From Capsulimonas corticalis (lineage in GTDB: Bacteria > Armatimonadota > Armatimonadia > Armatimonadales > Capsulimonadaceae): a stretch of DNA of 64,000 nt. Shown in pieces: positions 24,884 through 61,378 of this stretch (the stretch's first letter is position 1; each line of letters starts with the position of its first letter). The stretch spans positions 5,394,001 to 5,458,000 of the forward strand of contig NZ_AP025739.1 in NCBI RefSeq assembly GCF_003574315.2. The letters run 5' to 3'. The position numbers and the translations under genes are program-made. The notes under the pieces were generated by a model. It saw nothing but the letters and a program-made list of their open reading frames with translations, was not told the DNA's origin and did not search any database.

Positions 24884-25106
24884 GCACTATTTATTTATTC
24901 TGGCGCCGGCGATGGTACTATTCTTGGGAAAATATTCTTGTTGTTTGAGGAATATTTGAGGGCGCCGAGATATTCTGTAGAAGCCTGGATCGACGCCTGC
25001 CTGAATGGTTTGCTTTATGCATTCGATTGAGCCGTCATGGCGCGACGCTTTTCCTCGACGCCGCTGCGAAAATGCGTGACCGGGACATCGCCACACTGGG
25101 GAAAGC
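24884..25106. other. Intergenic gap downstream of the decayed IS
   Basis: No gene is supported here. It holds an 8-bp inverted repeat (24930-24937 with 24950-24957) in AT-rich sequence. The left 60 bases are noticeably more AT-rich than the surrounding host DNA. Confidence 0.4.
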
Positions 25107-36077: not shown

Positions 36078-37055
36078 ATGATTTCCCGAATATTGACGCG
36101 AACGTTCGTGCTGCTGTCCCTGATCGCGATCTGTGCGGGGCAAACGCGCGCCGCCGGAATTGAATGGCAGCCGGATTGGAGCAGCGCCGTCGCGCAGTCG
36201 TCGCGAACGAATAAAATGATCCTGGTGGATTTTTATACGGATTGGTGCGGCTGGTGCAAGAAACTGGACGCAGACGTTTACCCGAAACCCGCAGTTATCA
36301 GTACAGTCGCCCAGTTTGTCCCCGTTCGACTCAATGCGGAGAAAGCCGGCAAGGAATTGGCGGAGCGGTACCAGGTGAACGGTTACCCCACCATCCTGAT
36401 ATTGGACAGTTCCGGAAACGTCGTGGACCGATGCGCGGGATATATGAAGCCGAAAGAGTTTGTTGGTTGGCTGAACGAAGTCTTGCACGGCGGCGACGCT
36501 TCCGGCAGCGCAGCGCCAAGTGACGGCGCGGCCAATGACACCCCATCCAACGGCGTTGCATCGGACACCGACGTTCCGAAAACCACAACATCGCACAATG
36601 CGTCCGTTATTCACATGTCTCGTATTCGCGAGACGACGAAGTTCGTTCCCACCTACCAGGGCGATCCCATTGAAGCCGCGCCGACCATGACGCTGGCGCA
36701 GAAGTATCTGGATCGCGGCGATGCGGCGGGAGCCGGGCGGGTCGCCGTCAAAGTCGCGCATGGCGGCGGGACGGTTCCCGCCGCGTTCTATAGCAAATTG
36801 GGCGACGCCGCGCTGCGAGGCAAGAAGACGGACGCGGCGTGGGGCTGGTTTCAGCTGGCGCTGAAAACCGCGAAGTCCGACCAAGACATCGCGTATGCGC
36901 AGCTGCAATCGGCGAGGACCGAGATGGCGCTGGGCTCCTTGACCCCGGCGAAGGCGCATTTGAAAGCGCTCACGGAAAGCGCGGGCGCGCCCGCCAAGAT
37001 CAAATCCGAGGCGCAGTCGTTATTGGATGGGATCGGCGCTCCGGCCACGCGTTAG
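36078..37055 (+). CDS. Secreted thioredoxin-like protein with C-terminal helical repeats
   Basis: A 325-residue protein. The signal peptide (1-25) is followed by a thioredoxin domain with VDFYTDWCGWCKKLDADVY (active site C57-G-W-C60) and the cis-Pro segment YQVNGYPTILIL. A low-complexity linker (about 148-195) leads to a TPR-like helical region (YLDRGDAAGAGRVAVKVA onwards). The start at 36078 has GAAGAGG 5 nt upstream. It probably reduces or shuffles disulfides in exported proteins, with the repeats holding partners. Confidence 0.87.
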   Translation: MISRILTRTFVLLSLIAICAGQTRAAGIEWQPDWSSAVAQSSRTNKMILVDFYTDWCGWCKKLDADVYPKPAVISTVAQFVPVRLNAEKAGKELAERYQVNGYPTILILDSSGNVVDRCAGYMKPKEFVGWLNEVLHGGDASGSAAPSDGAANDTPSNGVASDTDVPKTTTSHNASVIHMSRIRETTKFVPTYQGDPIEAAPTMTLAQKYLDRGDAAGAGRVAVKVAHGGGTVPAAFYSKLGDAALRGKKTDAAWGWFQLALKTAKSDQDIAYAQLQSARTEMALGSLTPAKAHLKALTESAGAPAKIKSEAQSLLDGIGAPATR

Positions 37056-39654: not shown

Positions 39655-41739
39655 TTGCGACATCTCCATCGTCTCATTCTGACGGCTGCGCTGCTCGGCG
39701 GCGCGGCCGCCGCTCACGCCCAGGATCCGGCGCTGCCGCCGTCGCCTGTCGTCGATCCGGCTGCCGGCGCTCCCACCCCGCTGGTTGTCCCGCCGCCGGT
39801 GCTGGCGACGCCTTCCTCGCCAATCAAGTCTTTGCCCCCGGTCTACCTGGATGACGCCAACGACAGCTTCGGCATCGCGCAGACCGAGGCGCGCACGCAT
39901 GGCTTGCAGGCCCGCATTCTCTGGATCGATGGCCTCGCCAATACCGATCGCATCAACAGCGCGGACAAAATCAAAGCGCTGATGGCGCAGATCAAAAACG
40001 CAGGCTTCAATATGGTCGTGCTCGATGTCAAGCCGATCTCGGGTCTGACGCTGTACAAAAGCGCCTACGCCCCTTTGCTGACTGGGCGCGGCGGCAAACG
40101 TTTCCCGGATGGGTTCGACCCCCTGGCTGAGGTGCTGCGCGCCGCCCACCCGCTTGGTTTGCAAGTGATCGCCAGTATGAACGCATTCGCCGAGGGGCAG
40201 CTGGACGCGCCGCTGCCGCAGTCGCCCGGTTACGCCAATCCGCAGTGGCAGACGACGATTTATGAGACCGTCACCCGCGTCGCGCCGGCCGGATCGACCG
40301 TCAATACGATCCTCGCCGGCGACACGCCGAACGTTTTGAACGAAAACGGCGACCGCGTGACGATCTATCAGGATTTAACAAAGCTCAAGAAAGATTTGGA
40401 CAGCCGGGGCAACGCCAGCCTGACCGTGGCCGTGCTGAACGCTCAGGGGCAGGTGACGGCGGTGGGTAACGGCCAGATGATGACCGTGCCGACCACCGGC
40501 GCTCCCGCGCTTCCAATTCCCGTTCCTGTTCCAGTAGTTCCGGCGGCGCCAGTGGCTCCCGCCCCGGCCGCTCCCGCGCCACCCATAGCCCCGGTTCCAG
40601 ACGCCGCCGCGCCCGCATTGCCGCCTACGGCGCCAGCCGCTCCCCCGGCGGTCATTCCAGCGCCGACCAGCAAGCTCGGGCCTATGCCGGCCCGGCTCGC
40701 GAAAGGCGAAATGGCGCTTGTGGGGATCGCCGGCGCGTCGAACTTTCTCAACGCCTTCGCGCGGCTGGGCGTAACGATGACGGTGACATCGCTGCCGGAC
40801 TTCCACCCGATCGGCAAAGGCGCGGCGCATACAGGCCCGCTGATGGTGAACCCGAACGATCCCACGGTCCAGACACGCCTGCTCAACATGGTCGGCGAAG
40901 TCGTAGGATATGGAGTGGATGGCGTCGTCTTCGACGACCGGCTCCGGTACGCGGGCCTGAACGCGGACTTTGGCGATACGACGCGGGCGGCCTTCGAGAC
41001 CTATGTCGGGCATTCCGTGAAATGGCCGGACGACGTATTCAAGTACGCGTCGGACGATCTGCTGTCGCGCCGTGTTGTCCCGGGTCCATTGATGGAGACC
41101 TGGCTGCTCTGGCGCGCCGCGACGATCCGAAACTTTCTCGCGACGGCCGGCGCCCGCGTTAAGTCGCTCAATAAAAACACGACGATCAGCATTTACGTCG
41201 GCTCAACCTACAGCGACTACCCAAAGATGGGCGCGAACTGGGCCGCGGACGATTTCAGCGCTGGGTACCGATTTCTCACTCCAAGCTTTCAAAAGACGGG
41301 CATGGCCGGTCTTGTGGACTGGATGACGACCGGATGTTACTACCGCGTTGGCCCCATGCGCGACGCCGGCGATATCGGCCAAACGTCGAGCTATACCGTG
41401 GAGGCCGCCGGGCAGTTCAGCAACCGCGCGGCGAACGACCGGACGTGGGTGTACGCGGGGCTTTCGCTGGAGATGTTCAACGGCCGCCCCGACGCCCTCC
41501 GAGGCGCGCTCCAGGCGGCGGCCGCCACGACGCAGGGGATCATGGTCTTCGATCTCTCGCACAACATCGATCAGTTTTGGCCGGTGTTCAAGCAGGCGTT
41601 CGCGCTGCCGGCGCTGCCGCCGCACACGTCGCCTGGCCTGCTGGATTCGGTGCGCGCGCAGCACGAGGCGCACAAAACGTCCGGCCTGCCCGATCCTCCC
41701 GTCATCGTATTCGGCGGCGCGTCGGGAACGGGCTTATAA
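39655..41739 (+). CDS. Secreted GHL10-type hydrolase with a proline-rich insertion
   Basis: About 694 residues from a TTG at 39655. AGGA lies 8 nt upstream and the start gives a proper signal peptide (RHLHRLILTAALLGGAAAAHA). The earlier in-frame TTG at 39559 lies inside the cysN terminator. The first half of a GHL10/DUF187-like TIM barrel (ARILWIDGLANTD, FNMVVLDVKPISGLTLYKS) is followed by a Pro/Ala-rich stretch (about residues 275-350). The barrel then resumes (VVGYGVDGVVFDDRLRYAG, TISIYVGSTYSDYPKMG). The family includes putative glycoside hydrolases acting on cell-surface glycans; activity here is not known. Confidence 0.75.
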   Translation: MRHLHRLILTAALLGGAAAAHAQDPALPPSPVVDPAAGAPTPLVVPPPVLATPSSPIKSLPPVYLDDANDSFGIAQTEARTHGLQARILWIDGLANTDRINSADKIKALMAQIKNAGFNMVVLDVKPISGLTLYKSAYAPLLTGRGGKRFPDGFDPLAEVLRAAHPLGLQVIASMNAFAEGQLDAPLPQSPGYANPQWQTTIYETVTRVAPAGSTVNTILAGDTPNVLNENGDRVTIYQDLTKLKKDLDSRGNASLTVAVLNAQGQVTAVGNGQMMTVPTTGAPALPIPVPVPVVPAAPVAPAPAAPAPPIAPVPDAAAPALPPTAPAAPPAVIPAPTSKLGPMPARLAKGEMALVGIAGASNFLNAFARLGVTMTVTSLPDFHPIGKGAAHTGPLMVNPNDPTVQTRLLNMVGEVVGYGVDGVVFDDRLRYAGLNADFGDTTRAAFETYVGHSVKWPDDVFKYASDDLLSRRVVPGPLMETWLLWRAATIRNFLATAGARVKSLNKNTTISIYVGSTYSDYPKMGANWAADDFSAGYRFLTPSFQKTGMAGLVDWMTTGCYYRVGPMRDAGDIGQTSSYTVEAAGQFSNRAANDRTWVYAGLSLEMFNGRPDALRGALQAAAATTQGIMVFDLSHNIDQFWPVFKQAFALPALPPHTSPGLLDSVRAQHEAHKTSGLPDPPVIVFGGASGTGL

Positions 41740-41842: not shown

Positions 41843-42691
41843 ATGCGTTACGGCTCTCCGCCCAACCCGATGGACCAATTCCGCGATTTGATACGACGCG
41901 GCGGCATTCCCGTCACTAACGCGCTGCTGATCGCCAATGTCGTCACGTTTTTTGCTCTCTTTTTAGGCGGCCTTCCCGCCGCCGGTTTTATTCAGAACTT
42001 CCTGGCGTTCGATACGGATCTGTTCCTCCATCGTCCGTGGACGCTTTTCACGTATCCGCTGGTCGCGACGGGATTTTTGAATCTGCTGATCGGCGGATTT
42101 TTCCTTTGGCTCAGCGGCGGCAGCCTGGAGCGAAGCTGGGGCAGCCCGCGTTTCGCGCGGATGTTTTTCGCGCTCTCCGCAGTGTTCGCTCTCTTTATGT
42201 CGCTCGGCGCCCATGTGCTGCATATGGGCAATTATCCTCTCGATGGATTTAATCTGCCGCTGACGGGCTTGATCGTCGCCTTCTGCGCGCTCAATCCCGA
42301 GCAGACGCTCATGCTGTACTTCGTGCCGGTGCGCGCACGCTATTTGATCTATATCGTCGCGCTCTTCACCTGGATTACTTACGGGAAGTTTCTTGGTCTC
42401 TTCGCCTGCGGCGGTATCCTCGTGACGTATCTGTACATGACGTACTTCAATACGTACGGCGGGCGCGGCTACACGGTGCGCGGGCGGGATCCCAAGATCC
42501 TCCATTTGAACCCGAAGCAAAACACGGCGCGCAAGGTTTCGCTCGATGGTTCGGCGCCGCGCAGTCCTCTCGATATCGCCGGCCGCTGGCGTGACTATCA
42601 AGAGAAAAAACGGCTGGAGCAGCTTCTGAAAAATTCCGGTTTCACTGACAAGAACGACTGGCTCGACGACGACCCCAAGCGACGACGGTAA
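41843..42691 (+). CDS. Rhomboid-like membrane protein lacking the catalytic pair
   Basis: A 282-residue protein with six membrane helices and a rhomboid-like layout (FVVATGFLNLL region, LERSWGSPRFARMFF, LPLTGLIVAFCALNPEQ). The catalytic GxSG is replaced by PLTGLIVA, and no His is visible in the final helix (GLFACGGILVTYLY). It is therefore probably a non-proteolytic pseudo-rhomboid. A charged C-terminal tail of about 60 residues ends DDDPKRRR. It lies alone between the hydrolase and the PQQ-propeller gene. Confidence 0.72.
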   Translation: MRYGSPPNPMDQFRDLIRRGGIPVTNALLIANVVTFFALFLGGLPAAGFIQNFLAFDTDLFLHRPWTLFTYPLVATGFLNLLIGGFFLWLSGGSLERSWGSPRFARMFFALSAVFALFMSLGAHVLHMGNYPLDGFNLPLTGLIVAFCALNPEQTLMLYFVPVRARYLIYIVALFTWITYGKFLGLFACGGILVTYLYMTYFNTYGGRGYTVRGRDPKILHLNPKQNTARKVSLDGSAPRSPLDIAGRWRDYQEKKRLEQLLKNSGFTDKNDWLDDDPKRRR

Positions 42692-44614: not shown

Positions 44615-45300
44615 ATGACCATCGCAGATCCGACCGCCGGCAGCGCTCAGCAGATTGCCTGGCTCCGACTGAACGCGCTTGAGTTTGCTCCCAAGCGCGT
44701 TCACGCTCTCCTAGAGTTCTTTGACGGCTCTCCTGAGATCGCCTTCTCCCAGTCAGAGTCCGCGTGGCGTCAGGCGCTCCCGGATCTTACGTCCAAGCAG
44801 CTCGAACGCCTTCGCAAGATTCGCGATCAAGATTTCTCCAAAGAAATCGTCTTTCTGGAGCGATCCGGCGGACGAGCCGTTCCCTTCACCGATCCCGACT
44901 ACCCCGCAAACCTGAAGCCCTTGCCGGACGCCCCGCCCGTCCTGATCGTCCGAGGCTCCTTCGTCAGCGAAGACAAATTCAGCGTCGCCATCGTTGGCTC
45001 CCGCCGCGCCAGCTCCTACGGCCTCTCGCTCGCCCGACGCTTCGCCGCCGAGCTTGCCGACCGCGGCCTCACCGTCGTCTCCGGCGGCGCGCGAGGCGTA
45101 GACACCCAGGCGCACCTCGGCGCGCTGGACGCCAAAGGCCGCACCATCGCCTATTTGGGCTGTGGCGCCGACATCAACTACCCGTCCGAAAACCGCACCC
45201 TCTTTGACAACATCGTCACCTCCGGCGGCGCCGTCGTCTCCGAATTCCCGCTCGGCACGCGCCCCGAGCCCTGGCGATTTCCCGCAAGAAATAGACTCAT
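44615..45300 (+). pseudogene. dprA: DprA, 3' part displaced by the mobile element
   Basis: About 229 residues of DprA remain: an N-terminal helical region, then the Rossmann core with VAIVGSRRASSYGLSLARR, LTVVSGGARGVDTQAHLGAL and YLGCGADINYPSENRTLF. It ends in FPARNRLISG, the conserved segment that normally leads to the second half of the protein. After this point the frame runs antisense into the serine recombinase. DprA loads RecA on incoming single-stranded DNA during natural transformation, so the break should remove or impair competence. The frame continues to 45634 without DprA similarity. Position 45300 marks the last clear DprA codon. Confidence 0.9.
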
Positions 45301-47046
45301 TTCGGGTACGGCGCTCGGCGTGCCAACAGTATCTGCGAAAGTTTCGTCGGCAAACAAGCCCGGCTTAAAGAAGATCTCGGCCCCGTTATTCTTGCCCTCT
45401 TTGAATGGCAAGACCTTTTCAATAACGGAGCCGGTGATATCGCGCTTGGTCGCGCCTGGGACATGCGGCGACGTCAGCGCGATGCGCACGTCGGCAAGTA
45501 TGTCTGTGATGGCGACAGGCTTTGGAGACATGGCTCTGCCGCGACTTGGATGCACATTTACGCTCTTGGCTAGAACACCCCGCTGTTTCTCCAGGTCTTG
45601 CCGCCGCGCAGCTATTTCTGCAAAGACAGCCTGATAGACATCCGGCGATGCGCCTGCCCGAATGCCTGCAATCTGCGCCTGAACAGCGGCGGCTTCTTCT
45701 TGTCCGATCTCCTTCAAAGCGCGATCAAGCGCCGTCAACTGACGGCGTATCGCGTCGCCGTCTAAAGTTGCGGGGCTCATCTGGTTATATTCCGCGACCA
45801 GCGCCGCAACCATGGCCGGACGCAGGCAGGCATCCTCCAGCGCGCTAATGACTCGCTCTTCAATATCCTGCACATAATATCCTGTGGGGGCGCATGCGGC
45901 ATTCCCTTTGCCTAAATTAACAACCGAAGTGCGGTAAACGCCACACTGATAGCGCGCCGGATATTCAAACACGTCAGTGCTTCCTGGCTTCTTGCTTTTT
46001 TGCCGGGTGGGCGACATGTGATACATGCCCGCGCCGCATTCGCGGCAAAACACCCGCGCCGTCAGCATATGAACGCGGTTCGGGTTTCCGCTTTTCAGCT
46101 TTTTGTTTTCCTGCATCTGTTGCGCGCAATAGTCCCATACGTCTTCAGAGACCAGGGCCGGGCAGTCAAAGGTAATCCAGGTGTCTTCCGCTGCCGGGCG
46201 CATGCGGTGCGCCGATGTGAGCGGCTTTCCGGTGCGCTGATGGACCTGTCCAAGCCTGCTTTCATCGGTGTCATGGTCAAATCTGCCAAACACTGCACAG
46301 CCTTTGTAAACCGGGTTTAAAAACATAAATCTGATATTGGTTGAGCGCCAGCACTTGCCGCCGCCGGGCGTCGGCGCGCCGGCACTATTCAATTCTTTTG
46401 CTAATTCGTTGAGCGAGTGCGTGCCGGCCACATATTTCGCAAACAGATCACGGACGATTTGCGCTTGGCTTTCGATGATCTGATACTTGCCCAATTGATC
46501 ATGTGTATAATGGCCGCGCAGCACATCGGCCTTGGTAACGATGCGATAACCAAAAGGTGATGTCCGCCGTGCTGACTGGATGCCATGCTCTGCGCGCTTT
46601 ACAAAGCCGCTGTAGGTCCGCTTGCGGATAACCTTGCGCTCGTATTCCGCGAACTGCCCCATCATGCCAAACGCGAAATCTCCTTCGGGGGTATCGTCAA
46701 AATTCATATCGCAGAAAATGATCCGCCCACCTGCCGCCTGTACGGCTTTTTTAATCACCTGCTGATGTTCGGTATCCCGGCTGTAGCGGCTCATATTGGC
46801 GCAGATCAGCGTGTCAGCGCGCCCCGCTTGAATATCGGCAATGGCTTGCATCATGCCATGGCGCTGCGTCAGCCATGCGCCGGATATGCCACCATCGTAA
46901 TATTCAGCTACGATGGGCAGTCCTAAATCTAACGCCTTCAATCGGCAGGCATCAAGCTGGGTCTCCGGTGACGTGCCGTGCGCTTCCTGTCCATCTGAAC
47001 TCACGCGCGTATAAAGCACCGCGCCACGCGTTTTATTGATTGTCAT
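45178..47046 (-). CDS. Large serine recombinase (site-specific integrase)
   Basis: A 622-residue serine recombinase. The catalytic domain opens TRGAVLYTRVSSDGQ with the nucleophile Ser16, and contains EYYDGGISGAWLTQRHGMM and ANMSRYSRDTEHQQ. A recombinase DNA-binding domain and a zinc-ribbon (VFCRECGAGMYHM, later CGVYRT) follow, with a coiled region near residues 480-540. The start at 47046 has AAGGAAAG upstream. The last part of the frame, about 40-54 residues from DVGTPSAVPEM on, is read from the antisense of dprA, so its C-terminus depends on the integration site. It presumably catalyses insertion and excision. Confidence 0.93.
   Translation of the reverse strand: MTINKTRGAVLYTRVSSDGQEAHGTSPETQLDACRLKALDLGLPIVAEYYDGGISGAWLTQRHGMMQAIADIQAGRADTLICANMSRYSRDTEHQQVIKKAVQAAGGRIIFCDMNFDDTPEGDFAFGMMGQFAEYERKVIRKRTYSGFVKRAEHGIQSARRTSPFGYRIVTKADVLRGHYTHDQLGKYQIIESQAQIVRDLFAKYVAGTHSLNELAKELNSAGAPTPGGGKCWRSTNIRFMFLNPVYKGCAVFGRFDHDTDESRLGQVHQRTGKPLTSAHRMRPAAEDTWITFDCPALVSEDVWDYCAQQMQENKKLKSGNPNRVHMLTARVFCRECGAGMYHMSPTRQKSKKPGSTDVFEYPARYQCGVYRTSVVNLGKGNAACAPTGYYVQDIEERVISALEDACLRPAMVAALVAEYNQMSPATLDGDAIRRQLTALDRALKEIGQEEAAAVQAQIAGIRAGASPDVYQAVFAEIAARRQDLEKQRGVLAKSVNVHPSRGRAMSPKPVAITDILADVRIALTSPHVPGATKRDITGSVIEKVLPFKEGKNNGAEIFFKPGLFADETFADTVGTPSAVPEMSLFLAGNRQGSGRVPSGNSETTAPPEVTMLSKRVRFSDG
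45300..45340. other. Left junction of the mobile element (attachment-site region)
   Basis: DprA similarity stops at or shortly after 45300, and the serine-recombinase reading frame crosses this point on the other strand. The exact crossover pair cannot be fixed without the empty site. The right junction, expected to resume with a DprA GLSxG-type codon run, is not in the window. Confidence 0.7.
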
Positions 47047-47251
47047 TGATTCTTTCCTTGCGCGGCCTGCCCTGACGCCGCACCCCACCGGACGCCTTGA
47101 ATTGGTCAAGTTGTTGGCGCGTGACGCGCCATGATTTCTTATTTGCCATATATCCCGGCATATCACCGGCGTTGAGCATTCGCCGTACTGTGTTTACCGC
47201 AAGGCCAAGCTCGGCGGCCACTTCTGCCGCCGTCATATCCGGTTTGTCCAT
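47033..47251 (-). CDS. Small helix-turn-helix protein, excisionase-like
   Basis: A 72-residue MerR/excisionase-type HTH: MTAAEVAAELGLAVNTVRRM in the first helices, then the wing MPGYMANKKSWRVTRQQLDQF. Its end overlaps the recombinase start (14 bp), so the two are translationally coupled. It may direct the recombinase toward excision or regulate it. A TTGACA box at 47311-47316 on the minus strand may be part of its promoter. Confidence 0.85.
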   Translation of the reverse strand: MDKPDMTAAEVAAELGLAVNTVRRMLNAGDMPGYMANKKSWRVTRQQLDQFKASGGVRRQGRPRKERINDNQ

Positions 47252-48056: not shown

Positions 48057-49175
48057 ATGATCACATTCTTGCTGTTTGGGAAATTTCAAATTTGCTTATC
48101 CGACGGTCGCACTGAAACGATCGCGGATACAATGGCGGCGCGAATTCTCGCTTTCCTGGCATACCAGAATCGCTTTTGCGCGCGCAATGAAATTGTGGCT
48201 GCCTGCTGGGGTGCACATCGTGTTAGTGGCCGGGACCGGTTAGAAGATGAGGCTTATCAAAAGCAAATTTCAAATCTAAGGGGGATCTTCACAGAGCGAC
48301 TTGGCGTGCCATGGCAAGATTATTTGCTGACGCAGCCGAATGGTGCGCAACTGAAAGACGGCGCGTTTACCACAGACGTTATGCAATTTAACGGATTGTT
48401 GGCGGCTGGCTATGGTCGCAGCAATGATCTGAATGATCGGCAGGCAAAGCTTCTCGAAGCGGATGCCTTGCGGCGTGGCTATTTTCTTGATGGCATGAAC
48501 TGCGAATGGATTATCTCGCAAGATGGCGGAGCGCGGACGGATTATACCGCTCGCTTTAAAGACTTACGCCAAGAGATTCAGCAATTAGGATCTTCTGCCG
48601 AGCATCAAGCCGCGCCGCATGTTCCCTATTATGACAGTCTGTATGAAGCAATCCCAGATTTACGAAAAGCGATCAGCCAAGCCAAGAGAGAGATCGTTTT
48701 ATGCGGGATTAGTCTGAATGTAACGATCCCCATTATTTACGATATCCTCTTAGACCGGCTAGGTGATGGCCTCACGATCAAGTTTCTCCTCCTTGATCCT
48801 GCCAGTCAGTGGCTTTCGCATTTTGCGGCGATCACCGGCAGCGATACGGTCACGCAAAAGCAAGAAGTCATTCTAACGTTACATCGGTTGAGTAGTCTGA
48901 TATCCAAAGCGCCAGCGCCTCCAGCAAGCGATACCATTAATCAGCTCTTGATTGATGTGTCGGTTTTTGACGGCTTTCTTCCTGGCCGTATCTATGCTGT
49001 TGATCCTCAGAACGAAGACGGCCAACTTTTCTATTTCCCCTATCTCAATGCCACAACCCCGTCGCGTCTTCCAGGCTTTACCTGGTCACAGCGACAGACA
49101 GGACCGTTTGAAACCTATACCCATGCTATTTGGCAGCTTTGGCAGAACCGCAGCCGATCCGATGTTCGTCAATAA
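48057..49175 (+). CDS. SARP-like winged-helix/BTAD regulator with a C-terminal phospholipase-D-like region
   Basis: A 372-residue protein. The N-terminal part has an OmpR/SARP winged helix (ITFLLFGKFQICLSDGR, RILAFLAYQNRFCARNEIV, AYQKQISNLRGIFTERLG). The BTAD-like helical region follows, with ADALRRGYFLDGMNCEWI. From about residue 185 the C-terminal half, PYYDSLYEAIPDLRKAISQ, EIVLCGISLNVTIPIIYDIL and IKFLLLDPASQWL, resembles the DUF5919/phospholipase-D-like domains seen in HTH-linked signalling proteins. It does not carry a clear HKD motif. It could sense a ligand or damage and control the following transfer genes. Start at ATG 48057; a separate short frame with a better ribosome site starts at 47993 but is not extended. 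Confidence 0.65.
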   Translation: MITFLLFGKFQICLSDGRTETIADTMAARILAFLAYQNRFCARNEIVAACWGAHRVSGRDRLEDEAYQKQISNLRGIFTERLGVPWQDYLLTQPNGAQLKDGAFTTDVMQFNGLLAAGYGRSNDLNDRQAKLLEADALRRGYFLDGMNCEWIISQDGGARTDYTARFKDLRQEIQQLGSSAEHQAAPHVPYYDSLYEAIPDLRKAISQAKREIVLCGISLNVTIPIIYDILLDRLGDGLTIKFLLLDPASQWLSHFAAITGSDTVTQKQEVILTLHRLSSLISKAPAPPASDTINQLLIDVSVFDGFLPGRIYAVDPQNEDGQLFYFPYLNATTPSRLPGFTWSQRQTGPFETYTHAIWQLWQNRSRSDVRQ

Positions 49176-50026: not shown

Positions 50027-50683
50027 ATGCTACTTATCCTTATCGTTGGCTTGATAGCTACTTTGGCGCTCTGGGGTTTAATTTACCGCCTTGCCGTCTA
50101 TTGGCGTGATGCACATTCCGTGAAAGCAGGAATGAGCTTGACGACCGAGATGGAGATCATCGCGCCGCCGCCTCTAGCGGCCTTCCAACTTTTTCGACGC
50201 ATGACGATAATTAGCGTCGTAATATTGATCCTGTGGAGCATGATAGCTTTCTGGCTCTCTCAAGAACAAAAAGATTCGTTTTTTATTATTTTCCTCAGAC
50301 CATTTATCAATCCGCTAGCAAACGGCCTGATTGCTGTCGCGGTACGCATTGGTCTCTGGCTTGCGGTTGCATCCATCTGTATCTGCATTTGGCTTTGGAT
50401 AGCGGTTCGGCGCACAGGCGGACGCCGTGTGGTCAAACACATGAAACACTTTGGCAAATCTGGCAAGAAACAGACAGTGGTTTTTACAGAACCCCAGGCC
50501 AATGCTTGGCCGCCGGATTTTGCCGATGCTTTGCCGCGCCCAAACGCTCATGTTGCTTGGCGCAATGGAAGGGAAATTGTCGTTGAGATTCCGCCTTTCG
50601 ATCGTCCCCCAGTAAGTTATGGCGCTAGTGTAGAAGACGATATGCAAAACCTCCTTACCGGTCCGGAGGACAATCATGCCTGA
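50027..50683 (+). CDS. Three-helix membrane protein upstream of the coupling ATPase
   Basis: A 218-residue protein with membrane helices at about 2-22, 58-79 and 95-125 and a cytoplasmic C-terminal tail. GGAG lies 9 nt before the ATG. Its stop overlaps the start of the VirD4-like ATPase by 8 bp, showing translational coupling. Because that ATPase lacks membrane helices, this protein may provide the membrane anchor that is fused in ordinary coupling proteins. No family is recognised. Confidence 0.7.
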   Translation: MLLILIVGLIATLALWGLIYRLAVYWRDAHSVKAGMSLTTEMEIIAPPPLAAFQLFRRMTIISVVILILWSMIAFWLSQEQKDSFFIIFLRPFINPLANGLIAVAVRIGLWLAVASICICIWLWIAVRRTGGRRVVKHMKHFGKSGKKQTVVFTEPQANAWPPDFADALPRPNAHVAWRNGREIVVEIPPFDRPPVSYGASVEDDMQNLLTGPEDNHA

Positions 50684-52535
50684 AAACGAGTTTCTCAAAG
50701 CCCTACGCGAAAGCCCGGACAGCCCGTATTATAAGATTAAAGCGGAGCATCAGAATTATCTCTCACAGCAACGCCGCATTGCGGCTGAACGCCAGCAAGC
50801 ACTCATCGCGGCGCAAAACGAAGCGCGCGCCCGTCAGCTAGAGGATGCCGCCGCCGCAGAAAAAAAACGTCAACGACACTTTCAGGAGCAACAGAACATG
50901 CTTGATGCTATTGAAGAAGCAAAACACCGGCGCTGGATGCATGAACCGAATACGCTTTTGCTTGGCACTGTGCGCGGGCATCCCCTGGAAGGTCTTCGCG
51001 TGCCTGTGCCGGACCATTTGCATGATCTCTACCATGACCGGAATCATCAGATTGAACTCCCCATATGGTTTCGGGGTGACGAAATGGGCCTTACGTTCGG
51101 CGCGACGGGTTCAGGGAAATTTACAGGCATTATCGCTGCAAATGCGATGTATTTTGACGGTGGCCTGTTTGTGGTCGATCCTAAAGGAGAAGTTTGCGCC
51201 GTTACCGGCAACGCGCGGCGCAAGAAATTCCAGAAGGTGTATCGCTTAGATCCGTTCGACGTGACAGAATTTGCGCCGGATGCTTATCAAGTGCCGCGCG
51301 CCAGCTTTAATCCGCTCGATGCGCTTAATTCCGAAGCCAAACATTTTGACAATGATGTGTGTGACCTTGTTGAAATCATTGTGACGCCGCACAAGGACGG
51401 CGGGGACGGACAGTTTTTTATCGATCAAGCAAAAACGCTATTGACAGCCTTGATCATGTTCGTATGCGCCAGCCCCCTTTTTGACGGCCAGCGCCATTTG
51501 GCTAAGGTCCATGAATTGTTGTGTGTCGATGCCGCGCATCTGATATGGCTATTAGAAGAAATGGCGCAAGCGCCGCAAGACGCCATCCGGCTCTGCGCCA
51601 CAGCGCACCAGGGCATGACAGAAAAAACGCGGAGCGGTGTCTGGTCACAAGCGCAAAATGATATGAGCATTTTTAGCCGAGGGGCGATTAAAGAGAGTAC
51701 AAGCCATTCGACATTTGATTTGGCCGAATTATTTGAGGGCAAAATCACCGTTTATCTTGTCCTGCCATCTAAACGCCTTGATAGCAATAATCGATGGCTG
51801 CGTCTGATTATGGCGACTTTTCTTATGGAAGCTGGAAATCGTAAAGAAAGAGGCGCGACAGCGGCTAATACTTTATGGCTCGTTGACGAAGCAAGGCAGC
51901 TTGGTGCTCTCAGCAGTATTCCACAGGCTTATCGCCTGCTGCGTAGTTATGGCATTCGCATGTGGACCTTCTGGCAGAGCTTGCAGGACTTGCAGCAGAC
52001 GTACCCAGATGATTGGAGTTCAATGCTGGATAATTCCTTCGTGCAGCTGCTGAGTTGCAATAGCTTGGATACCGCAAAATATTTTTCGGAATTGGCTGGC
52101 GAATATCGGGAAGGACGCATATCAACCAGTGAAGCGCATGGTGTCAATTCTAGCGAAAATTCGAGCGTTACACATGGTAGTTCAGGATCAGGCGGGATAT
52201 CCAGAGGGCCGCAAGGGACAACATCATCATGGAATTCAGGCGGTTCATCAAGCCGCACCACAGGCACCAGTCATGGCACAAGCTTTACAGAATCCACAAC
52301 GCGTTCATGGCAATGGGATAAGCGTATTCGCATCGACGATATTCTCACAATGGCTTCTGATCGAATCTATCTACGATGCCCCCGCGAGCGCGCGGGTTTT
52401 GTGAATAAGCACATGTATTTTGACAATGCGTTTTTAGCGGCGTTAGCGAGTGGCAATCCCCTTTACGGTGGGCCAAGACCCAAACCGCTCTTCCCGCCCT
52501 TGTCGCTCGAACAGACGACGGAGGATGCTGACTAA
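50676..52535 (+). CDS. Type IV coupling protein, VirD4/TraG family, without membrane helices
   Basis: A 619-residue ATPase. The Walker A motif is FGATGSGKFTGI (residues 142-150), in the place where VirD4 proteins have GPTRSGKGVG. The Walker B is TLWLVDEARQLGAL (D404, E405). FVVDPKGEVCAVTG and FNPLDALNSEAKHFDNDVC also match the family. The N-terminus (25-85) is a charged coiled coil rather than the usual membrane helices. Near residues 490-555 is a Ser/Gly-rich insertion. Coupling proteins bring the relaxase-DNA complex to the type IV channel. GGAGG lies 7 nt upstream. No VirB homologues are visible nearby. Confidence 0.92.
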   Translation: MPENEFLKALRESPDSPYYKIKAEHQNYLSQQRRIAAERQQALIAAQNEARARQLEDAAAAEKKRQRHFQEQQNMLDAIEEAKHRRWMHEPNTLLLGTVRGHPLEGLRVPVPDHLHDLYHDRNHQIELPIWFRGDEMGLTFGATGSGKFTGIIAANAMYFDGGLFVVDPKGEVCAVTGNARRKKFQKVYRLDPFDVTEFAPDAYQVPRASFNPLDALNSEAKHFDNDVCDLVEIIVTPHKDGGDGQFFIDQAKTLLTALIMFVCASPLFDGQRHLAKVHELLCVDAAHLIWLLEEMAQAPQDAIRLCATAHQGMTEKTRSGVWSQAQNDMSIFSRGAIKESTSHSTFDLAELFEGKITVYLVLPSKRLDSNNRWLRLIMATFLMEAGNRKERGATAANTLWLVDEARQLGALSSIPQAYRLLRSYGIRMWTFWQSLQDLQQTYPDDWSSMLDNSFVQLLSCNSLDTAKYFSELAGEYREGRISTSEAHGVNSSENSSVTHGSSGSGGISRGPQGTTSSWNSGGSSSRTTGTSHGTSFTESTTRSWQWDKRIRIDDILTMASDRIYLRCPRERAGFVNKHMYFDNAFLAALASGNPLYGGPRPKPLFPPLSLEQTTEDAD

Positions 52536-54412: not shown

Positions 54413-55483
54413 CTAAAGATCAAGGCTGAGCGTTTCATAATGTTCAGGGCTTCTTGTCTCACGTTGTTCAGCGCGTTGCGCGACATATTCTTCCCAGGAT
54501 ATAGCCGGTTGCGTCTCAGGCGGCGCGGTGATTAAACGATTGGCGTCCGTTGCGGTCAGATTTTTCGCTCGGCGCGGCACAAGTTGCGGCGCAGGCGCTT
54601 GCTGCGTGGCCGGGATTGTTTGTCCGGTCAGTTCAGCGGCATACGCCTGATGCGTAAGATGCTTAGCCCGTACTCGAACTGGCTCCTGTTGGTTACAGAT
54701 ATTTTCGGGCGTCAACGGAGAGGGCTGACAAATTGGCGGGTCGCGTCGCATTTTAACGCGGAACTCCGCCGTGCGCACTTCTTCCAGCAACCGCACGGGA
54801 TCATAACGCTTTCCCGCATGCCATAGATTGAAATCACGGCGTTCGCCAGGCGTCAAATGCATCCCGTATGGTGCGAGCAACGCCTCAAACTGGCGTCCGG
54901 TCGTGCTAGCCTCCCATGCTGTTTTGACCATATCGCAAAGCGCGCTTCGGCTGATGCCACTTTCCTTTGCCATCTTATATTCAACAGAGCGCGTTTTTTG
55001 ATTGCCATTACGCATGCGTTTCGGTGCGCTATCTAATTCACGTAGGCCAAATTCTCGTTCCATCTGCCGGGCAGTCGCGTGAAGTTGCCGCCGGTCATGG
55101 CTCATTTTGAGCAGCTTGCCTTGGTCGCGGTCGAGCCGGGAATAGACCACGTGCAGATGCGGCTCACCATCTAAGTAATGGGCAACGATCGCACGCGGTT
55201 GGTTGCTAAGGTGCAATTTGCTTTCCATGACTTCAAGGGTTTGCAGCCACTGTTCGTTTCGTAGCGTTTCGCCAGGCGCCAAGCGGATTTTCACATTATA
55301 AAGCGGCTTTTCGCCTTTAGTGATAGCAAGAGCTTCTTTTTCCCAGGCATTCAAAGTGGATTGCAAATCCTCCATTAGGCTGCCACGAATACCCAACACG
55401 ATTATCTGCTGACGGTCGTTTTCCGTCAATAAATACACCGCGAGCTTCTTGCCGTTTTTGAGGCAGTTTGCCTTTATAATCAT
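54413..55483 (-). CDS. Relaxase/mobilisation nuclease (MobA/VirD2-type)
   Basis: A 356-residue relaxase. Tyr17 in KKLAVYLLTEND is the likely catalytic tyrosine. The histidine triad is in IVAHYLDGEPHLHVVYSRLD (H102, H109, H111). A helical segment SRSALCDMVKTAWEASTTG follows, and a short tail ends SWEEYVAQRAEQRE and PEHYETLSLDL (residues 329-356). It would nick the element's origin of transfer and stay bound to the transferred strand. It is shorter than most relatives, being trimmed to the nuclease, a helical domain and the tail. MobC lies 3 bp upstream of the start on the same strand. Confidence 0.9.
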   Translation of the reverse strand: MIIKANCLKNGKKLAVYLLTENDRQQIIVLGIRGSLMEDLQSTLNAWEKEALAITKGEKPLYNVKIRLAPGETLRNEQWLQTLEVMESKLHLSNQPRAIVAHYLDGEPHLHVVYSRLDRDQGKLLKMSHDRRQLHATARQMEREFGLRELDSAPKRMRNGNQKTRSVEYKMAKESGISRSALCDMVKTAWEASTTGRQFEALLAPYGMHLTPGERRDFNLWHAGKRYDPVRLLEEVRTAEFRVKMRRDPPICQPSPLTPENICNQQEPVRVRAKHLTHQAYAAELTGQTIPATQQAPAPQLVPRRAKNLTATDANRLITAPPETQPAISWEEYVAQRAEQRETRSPEHYETLSLDL

Positions 55484-55486
55484 GCT

Positions 55487-55831
55487 TTAATTTTCCATCG
55501 CGGCGATCACCGCTTGCGCGGCGGTTATCAGCATCTTGCGGTCGTCCTGTGCTTGACGATAAACGTCAGCGTTACCGGCGATATTCGCTTGGTGCGCGAT
55601 CTGATTGATGTTTGTGCCGATCCGGTTGAGAGCCACCAACGCCTGGCCGAGCGCAGCTATGTTGGGCGATTTGTTACGTGCCCGCTGTGGCGCTTTGGCT
55701 TTCACCAGGACGTGACGGATGTAAGCGGACAACTCCACTTGGGCGGCTTGGGCCAGCGTTTCCAGCTGGGCAAATTCTTCCGGTGTAAATCTCACGCCGA
55801 CAAAGCGTGTGCGTTTTGGTTCTGTTTTCAT
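55487..55831 (-). CDS. mobC: MobC-like mobilisation accessory protein
   Basis: A 114-residue protein. The N-terminal ribbon-helix-helix (TRFVGVRFTPEEFAQLETLA) is followed by the MobC signature ALNRIGTNINQIAHQAN. MobC binds near the nick site and helps the relaxase open the strands. It is encoded directly before the relaxase, with an upstream region (55832-56114) rich in inverted repeats that could be the origin of transfer. Confidence 0.88.
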   Translation of the reverse strand: MKTEPKRTRFVGVRFTPEEFAQLETLAQAAQVELSAYIRHVLVKAKAPQRARNKSPNIAALGQALVALNRIGTNINQIAHQANIAGNADVYRQAQDDRKMLITAAQAVIAAMEN

Positions 55832-55853
55832 TTTCCTCCGGGAGGGATTGAAC

Positions 55854-55913
55854 GGGAGGGCGGAGCCCTCCCTTCACAAGTAAAGGCGAAGCCGGTGCCG
55901 TGTTTAACACGGC
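55854..55913. promoter_or_regulatory. Candidate origin-of-transfer structure upstream of mobC
   Basis: Two perfect dyads: GGGAGGGC with GCCCTCCC (55854-55861 and 55865-55872), and a 17-bp palindrome centred on T (55897-55913). They lie 23 and 66 bp upstream of mobC, where mobilisable elements of this type often carry oriT. No consensus nick sequence was recognised, so this is a position-based guess. Confidence 0.4.
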
Positions 55914-56114
55914 ATTACTTGCCGGTCTTTCTAAAATCGACAAACCGATGCAGTTGAACGGGTAGCCATTCAAAGGCTTGGGCCATCCAACGGCGGTGTG
56001 TCGTACTGTGAAGATACTAGGGGCGGGAATTGAAGATCAATTGAAGCAAGCCGAAATACGCAGAAACGTGCCGACGGTGATTTGCGGCGCGTTTCTGGCA
56101 CGAGGATGTAGCGG

Positions 56115-56342
56115 CTAACTTTGCTTTAGGTAACGCCGCGTGGTGGGGCGATAGCGTCGCCGCTGCCATCCGTTGTTCGCGGAGGTTTGTATTTCGTCTT
56201 GAAAGCTTGCATCAAGCATCGCGAGCGCGCGGGGGCGAAATCTGGGTGGCAGCGCCATGATATGCTCACGGGCAAATTTGAAGGCATTAATGACTGTTTC
56301 TTCCCAGTCTTGGTCTGTATCAGTATAACTATCTGTTTCCAT
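56115..56342 (-). CDS. Small hypothetical protein
   Basis: A 75-residue protein with an acidic N-terminus (METDSYTDTDQDWEE) and a basic C-terminus (GWQRRRYRPTTRRYLKQS). No family is recognised. It lies between mobC and ardC with the same orientation. Confidence 0.5.
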   Translation of the reverse strand: METDSYTDTDQDWEETVINAFKFAREHIMALPPRFRPRALAMLDASFQDEIQTSANNGWQRRRYRPTTRRYLKQS

Positions 56343-56442
56343 GGTTAGCTCTCATAGCCGAAATAAAGGAGAAAATACACCCATAAGTTGAGTGATTTGA
56401 GGGACTAAGACGAATACGCAATATTCGTTCATTTTTCGACGC

Positions 56443-57438
56443 TTATAAGCACAAAGATTGCTGGATAGAACGTGAGACGACGGCTGTAACCTCTGGCTGC
56501 GGCGCGGCACCACGCAGATCATGCATAAAATCGACAGCGCGTTGGGCGTAACTCGCAGCGGCGAAAATTGCGCGCGTATCGCGCTTGAGGACTGTTAGCC
56601 AATTATCAATGTAAGCCGCATTCTCTGGCCTTGATTCTGAACTGAGGCCCAAATCCGCGCAAAGGAAGGCCGAACCCAGCTCGGCGATCAGCTCCTCGGC
56701 GGCGTAGCTTTCCGTGCCAAAGCGTGTTTTTAGTTCACGGTTCAGCCGCGAGGTATGGCCGGTCCAGTGCGTCACTTCATGCGTCAATGTGGAGTAGTAA
56801 GAGAACGGATCGACAAAGCAGTTAAAAGGCGGCATCTGGATATGATCCGTTGCCGGACGGTAAAAGGCGCGGTTGCCACCATGACGGATATCCGGGCCAA
56901 GCGCCTTGATGAAATGCTCGATCTCGGCGATGCGTTCATGGCCGGGGCGTGGCGGTTGTGTTACGGGCGGCTCATAGTTCGCTGTTTGGGCGATATTGAA
57001 TAACGCGAAGGCGCGCGCCACCCAGCGGCTTTGTGGCGTGTCGGCATCCTCAGTGACATGATCGCTTTCTGACTTCCCTGTAGCATCAATGTCCAGAGGT
57101 TTCCAGAACACCGCACAGGCGCTTTTTTCGCCTTTGTTCACCTGATAGCCGAGATCGCTCCATTGTCTGTAGGTCGCCCATTTTGCTTCGGGATAGTGAT
57201 GCGCCTGCGCTTCGGCAAGCAAGGCGACGATGTTCACGCCTCGATAAGCTTTCTGCGTCATGGCGTTGCGCGGGATAGCCAAAGCGATATCCGGTGCGTG
57301 CCAGGGCATCGTGCAAGTTTGTGCGCCTGCTTCAATGGCTTTGATGATTTGATCGGTTATGCGCGTATAAACGTCGGCACGGCTGATTGTTTCTTTTGGG
57401 CGTTGCGTCGCGGCATTGCGAGGATGGAGAGTGGGCAT
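56443..57438 (-). CDS. ardC: ArdC-like antirestriction protein
   Basis: A 331-residue protein. The N-terminal single-strand-binding domain (about 18-150) has RADVYTRITDQIIKAIEAG, MPWHAPDIALAIPRNAMTQ and YRGVNIVALL. The C-terminal zincin-like domain has STLTHEVTHWTGHTSRLNRE (H220, E221, H224). ArdC proteins protect incoming single-stranded DNA from host restriction during conjugation. Its presence with a relaxase is typical of mobilisable plasmids and elements. Confidence 0.92.
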   Translation of the reverse strand: MPTLHPRNAATQRPKETISRADVYTRITDQIIKAIEAGAQTCTMPWHAPDIALAIPRNAMTQKAYRGVNIVALLAEAQAHHYPEAKWATYRQWSDLGYQVNKGEKSACAVFWKPLDIDATGKSESDHVTEDADTPQSRWVARAFALFNIAQTANYEPPVTQPPRPGHERIAEIEHFIKALGPDIRHGGNRAFYRPATDHIQMPPFNCFVDPFSYYSTLTHEVTHWTGHTSRLNRELKTRFGTESYAAEELIAELGSAFLCADLGLSSESRPENAAYIDNWLTVLKRDTRAIFAAASYAQRAVDFMHDLRGAAPQPEVTAVVSRSIQQSLCL

Positions 57439-57506
57439 GGAAGATCCGTAAGCTAAATATGTTGAAGGAGGAAAGATGAGGGCGGCGCGCGCCGCCCCCG
57501 TTGGAG

Positions 57507-57767
57507 CTAGCTATTGGGTGTCTGAAGCTTCATCAGTTCTGCGATGGCGCAATCGGTAATTTCGCGCAGCCCCAGTAATTCCGCTAAGCGATAATTATTC
57601 GATGACTGCCATACACCGGCAGTATCACGGTAGCGCTGCTCGATGCTGACGGCGTGATCTACGCCGCCGTCAATTTGATTGACCCAGATCGTGGCTTGCG
57701 TGCGCCCGATTTTGTAGCGTTTGACGGCTTCGGATTTGACTTCGGCGGTTTGGGTTTCGGTTGTCAT
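57507..57767 (-). CDS. Small protein of unknown family
   Basis: An 86-residue protein beginning TTETQTAEVKSEAVKRYKIG and containing TQATIWVNQIDGGVDHAVSI and NNYRLAELLGLREITDCAIA. It resembles small conserved proteins found beside ardC on mobile elements. Their function is unknown. Confidence 0.65.
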   Translation of the reverse strand: MTTETQTAEVKSEAVKRYKIGRTQATIWVNQIDGGVDHAVSIEQRYRDTAGVWQSSNNYRLAELLGLREITDCAIAELMKLQTPNS

Positions 57768-57801
57768 GATTTGTCTCCTTTGGTTAGGCTGGCTTCATTG
57801 C

Positions 57802-57938
57802 CCGCCTGTGAAATCGCCTCGACCTTGCGCGCCCCCCGGCGTCAATGCGCCAACACGGTTCCGCGCAGCGGAAGTGGTGCGGGCAGGCGCTTGACGTATT
57901 GAGGGGGGCGACCAAGGTAGATTTCACAATCACGGCGG
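57802..57938. other. Nested stem structure in a gene-free gap
   Basis: Coaxial helices close one another: 57802-57806/57934-57938 (5 bp), 57808-57815/57920-57927 (8 bp), 57822-57827/57913-57918 (6 bp), 57830-57837/57903-57910 (8 bp), 57840-57845/57891-57896 (6 bp) and 57847-57851/57886-57890 (5 bp). A 6-bp terminal hairpin lies at 57859-57864/57868-57873. About 44 pairs in 137 nt lie in the 370-bp space between the 57507 gene and alpA. It could be a small RNA, a transfer or replication origin, or an assembly site. I recognise no known family. Confidence 0.6.
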
Positions 57939-58137
57939 CAATGAGGACAGCCGGGCAAAGCGGTGAGACTTGATCCTTGGCTTCTGCCCAACCCGCCGGG
58001 AGTTAATTCGAAAGCAGCAACAGGAAGGTAAGAGGACCACCATGCGCAGTGCTGGACGTGCAGAATGACAGCGGCGCAGGCTAGTCAGTACAGAGCGACG
58101 CGACCACGATACAAAAGGGATTGGCAAACGCATGAGC

Positions 58138-58350
58138 TTAACCTCGCGGGGGGCGACGGGTTGCCGCACGCGCCGAAATCCAGGCGCTAATCTCGCTGTC
58201 CATCCATCCCACGGCGCGCGCGCCAATGCTGACAGAAGACGGAAATTCGTTCTTGCGGATTAGTTCGTAGAGAGTGGAACGGCTGAGGCCGGTGCGCAGC
58301 AGGGTTTCGCGCAAGCGCAAAATGCGCTCACCTTTAAGATTAACTAACAT
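58138..58350 (-). CDS. AlpA-family regulator
   Basis: A 70-residue HTH protein: RILRLRETLLRTGLSRSTLY, then ELIRKNEFPSSVSIGARAVGW and MDSEISAWISAR, matching AlpA proteins. AlpA acts as a positive regulator of phage-like integrases or transfer genes. The start is preceded by AAGG-type sequence, and an operator-like dyad lies about 75 bp upstream (58408-58438). Confidence 0.9.
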   Translation of the reverse strand: MLVNLKGERILRLRETLLRTGLSRSTLYELIRKNEFPSSVSIGARAVGWMDSEISAWISARAATRRPPRG

Positions 58351-58407
58351 AAAGGTTCCTCCGTTGGGTTGACGGAGAAACGCTATCAGGCTTGGCTAGC
58401 GCCGTGG

Positions 58408-58438
58408 CCGAATACGGTTAGCGGCGACCGAATTCGGT
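58408..58438. promoter_or_regulatory. Repeated operator-like sites upstream of alpA
   Basis: CCGAATACGG (58408-58417) and the perfect 12-bp palindrome ACCGAATTCGGT (58427-58438) lie 19 bp apart, start to start, in the same orientation. Their position between alpA and the divergent gene at 58543 suggests regulator binding. Confidence 0.5.
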
Positions 58439-58542
58439 TTACTTGAATCCATTACATGATGAGCGCGGCCACATCATTTTCGAGGTGCGCAAAAAGGAAC
58501 TTAATTGTAGAATAGAAATTATACGAAGTGATGTGGGATCTT

Positions 58543-60085: not shown

Positions 60086-61378
60086 ATGGCACTTACAGAA
60101 TTAGCTCTCAAAAACCTAAAACCGAAGTCCAAGCCCTATAGGGTGCCGGACGGCGGCAATCTTAGTATTGAAGTCTCGCCTGCTGGCGGCAAGCATTGGC
60201 GATGGCGCTATGTGTTTGCGGGCAAACCGGATATTCTGTCTTTGGGTAAATACCCTGCTGTCTCACTTGCCGAGGCGCGCAAGCGGTGCGACGAAGTGCG
60301 AGAAATTCTCAAAAGCGGCAAGCATCCAGGGCGCGAAAGACGGGCGGAGAAGCAACGGCAGATCGCTGCCGCCGACGACAACTTTGCGTCATTTGCGCGC
60401 GACTGGCTCAAAACCAAGCACCGCGCCGAAAGCAAAAAATATCGGCAACAATGCCTAAAACGGATGCAAGATCACGTGTTCCCAAGGATTGGCAATCTAT
60501 CCATACCAGAAATAACCGCCCCAATGATTGTGAGGGTAATTGAAGCAATCGGTGCCGCTGGAACGATTGAAACGGCCAAGCGCATGGGACAGCTACTCAA
60601 ACAAATTTTTCGTTACGGCGTTCAGCGTGGCCTTTGCTCGACTAATCCTGCGGCGGATCTTCAAGACGTTCTGCCACGCCCTAAGAAAAAACATCATGCC
60701 TGCATTCATCCTCGCGACATGACAGAGCTTTTGCAGGCTATGGCGGCCTACAAGGGCGAAAAGATCACTGTTCATGCCATGCATTTGATGGCTCTAACAT
60801 TTGTCCGTACCAGTGAGCTGATTGCAGCCAGATGGGATGAGGTCGATTGGGAAAAGCGGCAATGGGATATCCCTAAAGAACGCATGAAAATGAAACGCCC
60901 GCATGTCGTGCCGCTATGCGATCAATCTATCGCTACCTTGACTGCACTGCGTGATCTGACTGGCGATAAATCGCACATATTTTTTAGTGCGGCCAGCAAG
61001 TCAAAACATTTGAGTAATGGGGTAATTTTGATGGCGTTGGATCGCATGGGCTATCACGGCCTGATGACTGGCCATGGTTTTCGCAGCCTTGCTTCAACCA
61101 TTTTGAACGAAAATGGCTTTAACCGTGATGTAGTCGAACGACAACTAGCCCATGAAGATGAGGACGAAGTACGATCAGCTTATAACCGTGCGGAATATTT
61201 GGCCGAGCGCGTAAAAATGATGCAATGGTGGGGCGATCATCTTGATGAAATGCGCGCAAAAATTATAGAACCAAGAAAGAAGAAAGTCGCCAATTTATCA
61301 CCCGAACGCCAACGGGCGAACGAGATGACTAATGGTGTAAAATCTCGCCTAAGGGTTGGCACAGCACGTTTAGCTTAA
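60086..61378 (+). CDS. Tyrosine integrase with an arm-binding domain
   Basis: A 430-residue integrase of the P4-like type. The arm-binding DUF4102 domain (1-90) holds PDGGNLSIEVSPAGGKHW, then the core-binding domain (about 98-185). The catalytic domain has R241 in FVRTSELIAARWDEVDW, H330 and R333 in GHGFRSLAS, H356 in RQLAHEDEDEV and the nucleophile Y366 in RSAYNRAEYL. It recombines a tRNA-type or short attachment site. Its presence with the serine recombinase suggests nested elements or a second integration system. Confidence 0.94.
   Translation: MALTELALKNLKPKSKPYRVPDGGNLSIEVSPAGGKHWRWRYVFAGKPDILSLGKYPAVSLAEARKRCDEVREILKSGKHPGRERRAEKQRQIAAADDNFASFARDWLKTKHRAESKKYRQQCLKRMQDHVFPRIGNLSIPEITAPMIVRVIEAIGAAGTIETAKRMGQLLKQIFRYGVQRGLCSTNPAADLQDVLPRPKKKHHACIHPRDMTELLQAMAAYKGEKITVHAMHLMALTFVRTSELIAARWDEVDWEKRQWDIPKERMKMKRPHVVPLCDQSIATLTALRDLTGDKSHIFFSAASKSKHLSNGVILMALDRMGYHGLMTGHGFRSLASTILNENGFNRDVVERQLAHEDEDEVRSAYNRAEYLAERVKMMQWWGDHLDEMRAKIIEPRKKKVANLSPERQRANEMTNGVKSRLRVGTARLA

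Follow-up and report, generated by a model that had tools for sequence, protein, structure and literature searches.

What does a long inverted repeat do in a gene-free gap of a putative mobile element in the chromosome of Capsulimonas corticalis? The stretch analysed here, the window, comprises 64,000 nucleotides of contig NZ_AP025739.1 (positions 5,394,001 to 5,458,000), and coordinates refer to it unless another record is named. An earlier note had described a 137-nt nested stem at 57802-57938 within a 370-bp gap, and proposed for it a non-coding RNA, an origin of transfer or replication, or a protein-assembly site. The evidence collected below favours a gene-expression element for the genes orf86 and ardC that would be active as single-stranded DNA (ssDNA) in the leading region of the element.

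The hairpin and its genetic neighbourhood

The size of the gap was correctly given, since it spans 57768-58137 between alpA and a small ORF, and the stem at 57802-57938 was confirmed, with about 47 pairs, an RNA minimum free energy of -73.3 and a z-score of -4.9 (0 of 200 shuffles folded as well); the opposite strand of this segment also folds (-71, z -4.7). The core described earlier is present, but the structure is larger than was claimed, this core being the inner part of an imperfect inverted repeat of 197 nt at 57773-57969, which forms about 73 pairs when folded as plus-strand ssDNA and whose outer stem, previously overlooked, holds the Shine-Dalgarno sequence of an 86-aa ORF (orf86). A rho-independent terminator, which would consist of a short GC stem and a T-tract, had rightly been discarded, as no T-tract follows on either side. 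Under DNA parameters for single-strand folding, positions 57780-57960 reached a z-score of -6.4 with no shuffle equal to it, and the minus-strand RNA of 221 nt around the hairpin one of -5.4. In a scan of 912 tiles of 200 nt, the tile 57771-57970 lay 28 kcal/mol below its own shuffles, the lowest value of the window (next, -24.6), with the reservation that only this tile was aligned to its repeat and the others were not aligned individually to hairpins. When raw energies of 150-nt tiles were corrected for GC content, the same place ranked only about tenth, so that alignment to the full repeat matters. The second strongest fold of the window (16591-16790, about 25 kcal/mol below shuffles) lies within a 441-aa ORF.

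The features of the locus, read leftward and followed by the signals within the hairpin, are these:

60086-61378, plus strand: tyrosine integrase of the element
58138-58350, minus strand: alpA regulator (PF05930), upstream of the hairpin
57773-57969, plus strand (as ssDNA): full inverted repeat or hairpin; left arm 57773-57864, apical loop 57865-57867, right arm 57868-57969
57507-57767, minus strand: orf86, the 86-aa ORF, first gene after the hairpin
56443-57438, minus strand: ardC, with an ArdC N-terminal ssDNA-binding domain (PF08401, 2.2e-31) and a zincin-like metallopeptidase domain (PF18818, 4.5e-52)
56115-56342, minus strand: possible 75-aa ORF between ardC and the oriT-like region
55843-55927, minus strand: oriT-like region, CAAG-inverted repeat-CTTG and then GGGAGGGCTCCGCCCTCCCGTT..A.CCC, directly upstream of mobC
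55487-55831, minus strand: mobC/NikA-like relaxosome protein
54413-55483, minus strand: MobA/VirD2-type relaxase (PF03432, 1.5e-16)
50676-52535, plus strand: type IV secretion system (T4SS) coupling protein (VirD4/TraG type)
57771-57782, minus strand: orf86 Shine-Dalgarno region CAAAGGAGACAA, paired in the outer stem
57874-57882, plus strand: GTGGTGCGG, beside the apex
57891-57896, plus strand: TTGACG, -35-like, in the right (non-template) arm, pairing with CGTCAA at 57840-57845
57918-57923, plus strand: TAGATT, a weak -10-like candidate (4/6) beside a mismatched stretch

On the minus strand, the leftward order is thus alpA, hairpin, orf86, ardC, 75-aa ORF, oriT-like region, mobC and relaxase, with orf86 and ardC forming an operon downstream of the hairpin. 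The product of orf86 has no Pfam match and has distant relatives in two genomes of the same phylum. ArdC is an anti-restriction protein, and that of plasmid R388 is needed in the recipient and not in the donor (PMC7213743). The element is integrative and probably mobilizable; no mating-pair proteins were recognised among the ORFs of the window region scanned, and transfer itself is therefore something that we infer. A large serine recombinase (45178-47166) adjoins the element, besides its tyrosine integrase.

The location of the hairpin in a mobilization region could suggest that it is itself the oriT of the element. A comparison by eye of the window with five relatives of its relaxase (from Sphingopyxis pSREG01, Sinorhizobium pSymB, Acidithiobacillus pTF4.1, Frigidibacter pcai42B and a same-phylum contig) revealed a common layout upstream of mobC, composed of CAAG, an inverted repeat, CTTG, a G-rich hairpin and GTT.A.CCC. 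In the window, this motif has the same position and orientation as in the relatives, diverse MOBP-type plasmids among them, and it falls at 55843-55927, about 1.8 kb away from the hairpin, which makes an oriT function of the hairpin exceedingly improbable. Out of the roles proposed at the outset, the oriT does not stand and the non-coding RNA finds no support in Rfam, whereas a ssDNA site of the leading region comes nearest to the notion of a replication origin or assembly site. Beside the oriT-like region there is a weaker nested inverted repeat (56041-56215, z -2.65), which overlaps the end of the 75-aa ORF.

Samuel et al. 2024 (PMC11541004) place relaxase genes usually on the lagging side, and consequently the side of ardC and the hairpin would be the leading one, with the plus strand being transferred and serving as template of orf86 and ardC. 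This direction of transfer is deduced from the relatives of the relaxase and should be taken as a prediction. Plasmid F shows the mirror image of the order in the window, and its leading genes likewise run toward oriT.

Hairpins preceding ardC on plasmids

A comparative scan, for which DNA folding was applied to 700 bp of sequence preceding ardC in other loci, was calibrated with two hairpins of plasmid F, Frpo1 (z -9.0) and Frpo2 (z -7.0). The value for the window was -5.2, and several plasmids lay between -4.9 and -8.1, the high-scoring plasmid hairpins falling into two families, A and B, unrelated to each other. Family A precedes ardC in 22 rhizobial plasmid records and covers about 190 nt beginning at the ribosome-binding site of ardC, whose Shine-Dalgarno sequence is part of the outer stem; its divergence is too small for covariation (2 compensated pairs). 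Family B was found in 123 plasmid records of Rhodobacterales and others, about 20 of which cover most of the query while many are short partial matches, and it sits before ardC, DUF3768 genes and others. In this family, 19 of the 51 core pairs are changed on both sides, compared with 7.5 +/- 1.9 in shuffles (none of 500 reached as many) and with 3-6 compensated pairs in a control of slid alignments. A piece of about 40 nt of family B also occurs in many gammaproteobacterial conjugative plasmids, and NZ_CP136707 (L055) carries more partial copies at 25104, 203192, 203458 and 214052, on the same strand as its full copy.

The plasmid NZ_CP034814 of Paracoccus sp. Arc7-R13 contains five copies of family B (L200:32881-33050, 36690-36859, 40101-40270, 42626-42685 and 48941-49041), all on one strand and on the leading side, between the oriT side and a umuC/S24 pair. 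Each of them precedes a gene running toward oriT, namely those for DUF3560, ParB, DUF932 and two hypothetical proteins. This arrangement corresponds to the published picture of the Frpo hairpins, which drive early expression of leading genes from ssDNA (PMC9849209).

The relation to the relaxase was then compared in all records having both a hairpin and a PF03432 or annotated relaxase, that is, P. yeei, Ochrobactrum, Jiella, Salipiger, Paracoccus Arc7-R13, two Bosea plasmids and Bradyrhizobium. In 8/8 plasmids, the nearest relaxase lies downstream of the gene that follows the hairpin and on the same strand as that gene; random strands would give this outcome with a chance of 1 in 256, the two Bosea plasmids not being fully independent. 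For Jiella, where no gene is annotated directly behind the hairpin, the gene strand was taken as the opposite of that of the hairpin motif, and in Salipiger a second relaxase lies 118 kb off on the other strand. The window is a ninth case fitting this geometry. No earlier description of families A and B was found in the open-access literature, and these two families with their shared strand logic on alphaproteobacterial plasmids are better supported than the single case of the window.

Searches for homologues of the window hairpin itself gave a uniformly negative panorama. None was detected by blastn in plasmids or at the DNA level in 101 related genomes, nor starting from orf86 in its class (19 species), its phylum, plasmids and viral contigs. 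With the relaxase as query, viral contigs and the phylum yielded only a 39% relative (L029) and no hairpin homologue. Searching with ardC returned none in genome contigs, the closest of which (L003) starts 76 nt upstream of the match, and none similar among phylum relatives of up to 60% identity; relatives of the integrase in viral contigs reached only 33-46%. As no homologue was found, there are no compensatory changes to be counted for the window hairpin itself. It has no blastn match to families A and B or to the F Frpo hairpins (loci including F 50000-67500), and the covariance model of family B (R1), which gives scores as high as 132 bits to its own relatives, does not find it.

Some short motifs are shared nevertheless. 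The sequence TGGTGCGG is common to the window hairpin and both families, and at the corresponding stem TTGAC is invariant in family B and appears as TTGA(C/T) in family A; TTGACG had been noted in the window hairpin before the families came to light. A shuffle test of this sharing gave p values of about 0.01-0.03, other tiles of the window outscoring the hairpin for the two-block motif, and the patterns TGGTGCGG..GGCGCTTG in viral contigs and TGGTGCGG..CGCTTGAC in 291 genomes were unspecific. The motif as a link to the two families is suggestive only. Membership of the window hairpin in family B was abandoned after the motif test and the covariance model; with the former weak and the latter negative, the window hairpin is to be seen as an analogue and not as a demonstrated homologue.

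The idea that ardC always has a hairpin was likewise dropped. For 29 ardC genes on chromosomes of the same phylum, the upstream regions were no more structured than the downstream ones (p = 0.98), and several plasmid ardC genes had no upstream hairpin in the 700-bp scan. From these controls it follows that the hairpin belongs to certain mobile elements and not to ardC as such.

A decayed transposon, a MITE or a chance inverted duplication devoid of function would account for a hairpin that is a single copy in its 7.6-Mb host genome and a singleton in the collections searched. That such duplications do arise is indicated by the right arms of family A, which resemble inverted ardC start regions; at L043:3790-4000, on a rhizobial plasmid, the ribosome-binding site and start codon of ardC seem to recur inverted in that arm. 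No target duplication was seen by eye at the ends of the window hairpin, however, its long nested arms have been retained, and its position and orientation match those of two other families, so we regard a functionless origin as very improbable.

Promoter, primer or RNA element

Given its position and geometry, the hairpin is moderately likely to be a ssDNA promoter, a primer site or both, with an action similar to that of Frpo/ssi in plasmid F. On this reading, the transferred strand, presumably the plus one, would enter the recipient, where 57773-57969 would fold into a double-stranded hairpin. Host RNA polymerase might recognise the folded structure, using the left arm as template, and transcription would exit the base of the hairpin leftward to give an orf86-ardC mRNA ahead of second-strand synthesis. 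This early mRNA would supply ArdC to protect the incoming DNA against restriction, and conversion to duplex would make the hairpin disappear.

The promoter-like signals are of unequal quality. TTGACG can be read toward orf86-ardC in both arms (57891-57896 and the complement of 57840-57845), and the spacing between TAGATT and TTGACG is 17 nt only when the bulge 57897-57902 is counted without its 4 extra bases; judged from its sequence, this putative -10 box is weak and not convincing. No conventional sigma-70 promoter was found in 55700-58500.

A different explanation is that the structure works as RNA: as part of the leader of a transcript covering alpA, orf86 and ardC, it would keep the Shine-Dalgarno sequence of orf86 hidden and in this way control translation or stability. 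Both strands fold well, the three genes run the same way, and the Shine-Dalgarno sequence within the outer stem is nearly always paired in long transcripts: the unpaired probability of AAAGGAGAC is 0.00-0.07 for transcript starts at 57976 or farther upstream. Nonetheless, a 197-nt stem of such stability lacks an evident on-state, Rfam returned no match above the gathering score, and a purely RNA role does not predict the 8/8 DNA-strand geometry of the analogous hairpins. For these reasons we hold an exclusively RNA-based function to be rather unlikely.

The ssDNA promoter and the buried ribosome-binding site could also act together. With a start at 57952 or at a lower coordinate, the unpaired probability of AAAGGAGAC rises to 0.06-1.0, that is, largely free with low values at single positions. 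According to this folding model, read-through RNA from alpA would contain the two arms, so that the Shine-Dalgarno sequence would be buried and translation silenced, whereas RNA begun inside the hairpin would expose it, limiting expression to the moment of entry. Such a dual switch, by which ardC would be expressed only from the incoming strand and stay silent both as duplex and as read-through RNA, is a tentative and somewhat doubtful proposal. For family A, long transcripts have the Shine-Dalgarno sequence paired, and a 60-nt transcript still keeps it in local pairing, hence the translational switch fails there and is predicted for the window only.

It could be argued that the hairpin is instead a single-strand origin, or a primase or primosome site, priming second-strand synthesis without being an mRNA promoter. 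Orientation-specific hairpins do serve as single-strand origins, as is known from ICEBs1 (PMC4595007), and Frpo was reported to prime replication besides transcription (Masai and Arai 1997). A priming site, however, need not directly precede a gene; the window hairpin extends into the ribosome-binding site, and plasmids with family B carry as many as five copies, every one of them in front of a gene, which makes a role restricted to priming quite unlikely. Like the sso of ICEBs1, the window hairpin would be an orientation-specific folded ssDNA on an integrative element; unlike it, the ICEBs1 sso consists of three stem-loops similar to the sso of pBAA1 and primes the second strand of a Gram-positive element.

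Relation to known systems and significance

If the Frpo-like reading holds, the window hairpin resembles Frpo1 and Frpo2 (ssi) of F in being a long and stable ssDNA hairpin in the presumably transferred strand, on the leading side of oriT and immediately before early genes oriented toward it, with the transferred strand as predicted template and an anti-defence gene downstream. The differences are also clear: there is no sequence similarity, the hairpin measures 197 nt in the window versus about 285 nt (estimated by eye) in F, the window stem reaches the Shine-Dalgarno sequence whereas that of F ends about 57 nt before the ssb start, the -10 of the window is not consensus, and the window hairpin resides in an integrative element of a chromosome. 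With families A and B it has in common the location before ardC, the strand relation to the relaxase and the TGGTGCGG and TTGAY motif, and with family A the Shine-Dalgarno sequence inside the stem, in spite of having no alignable similarity to either. Samuel et al. 2024 (PMC11541004) describe leading regions as harbouring many anti-defence genes and Frpo-like candidates, and their main text makes no mention of ArdC. In contrast to those candidates, the window hairpin and families A and B came to light by position and not by similarity to Frpo.

Expression of anti-defence genes from incoming ssDNA is experimentally known for enterobacterial plasmids such as F. If it were also true for these hairpins, the mechanism would be a general one, evolved in unrelated sequences and recognisable by position and structure instead of Frpo similarity. 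Early gene expression would then become testable in Rhodobacterales, rhizobia and integrative elements, and the layout would provide a search rule for unknown anti-defence genes. Should the dual switch be true as well, the window hairpin together with families A and B would mean that ssDNA promoters arose repeatedly without a common sequence, outside enterobacterial plasmids and with integrated elements included.
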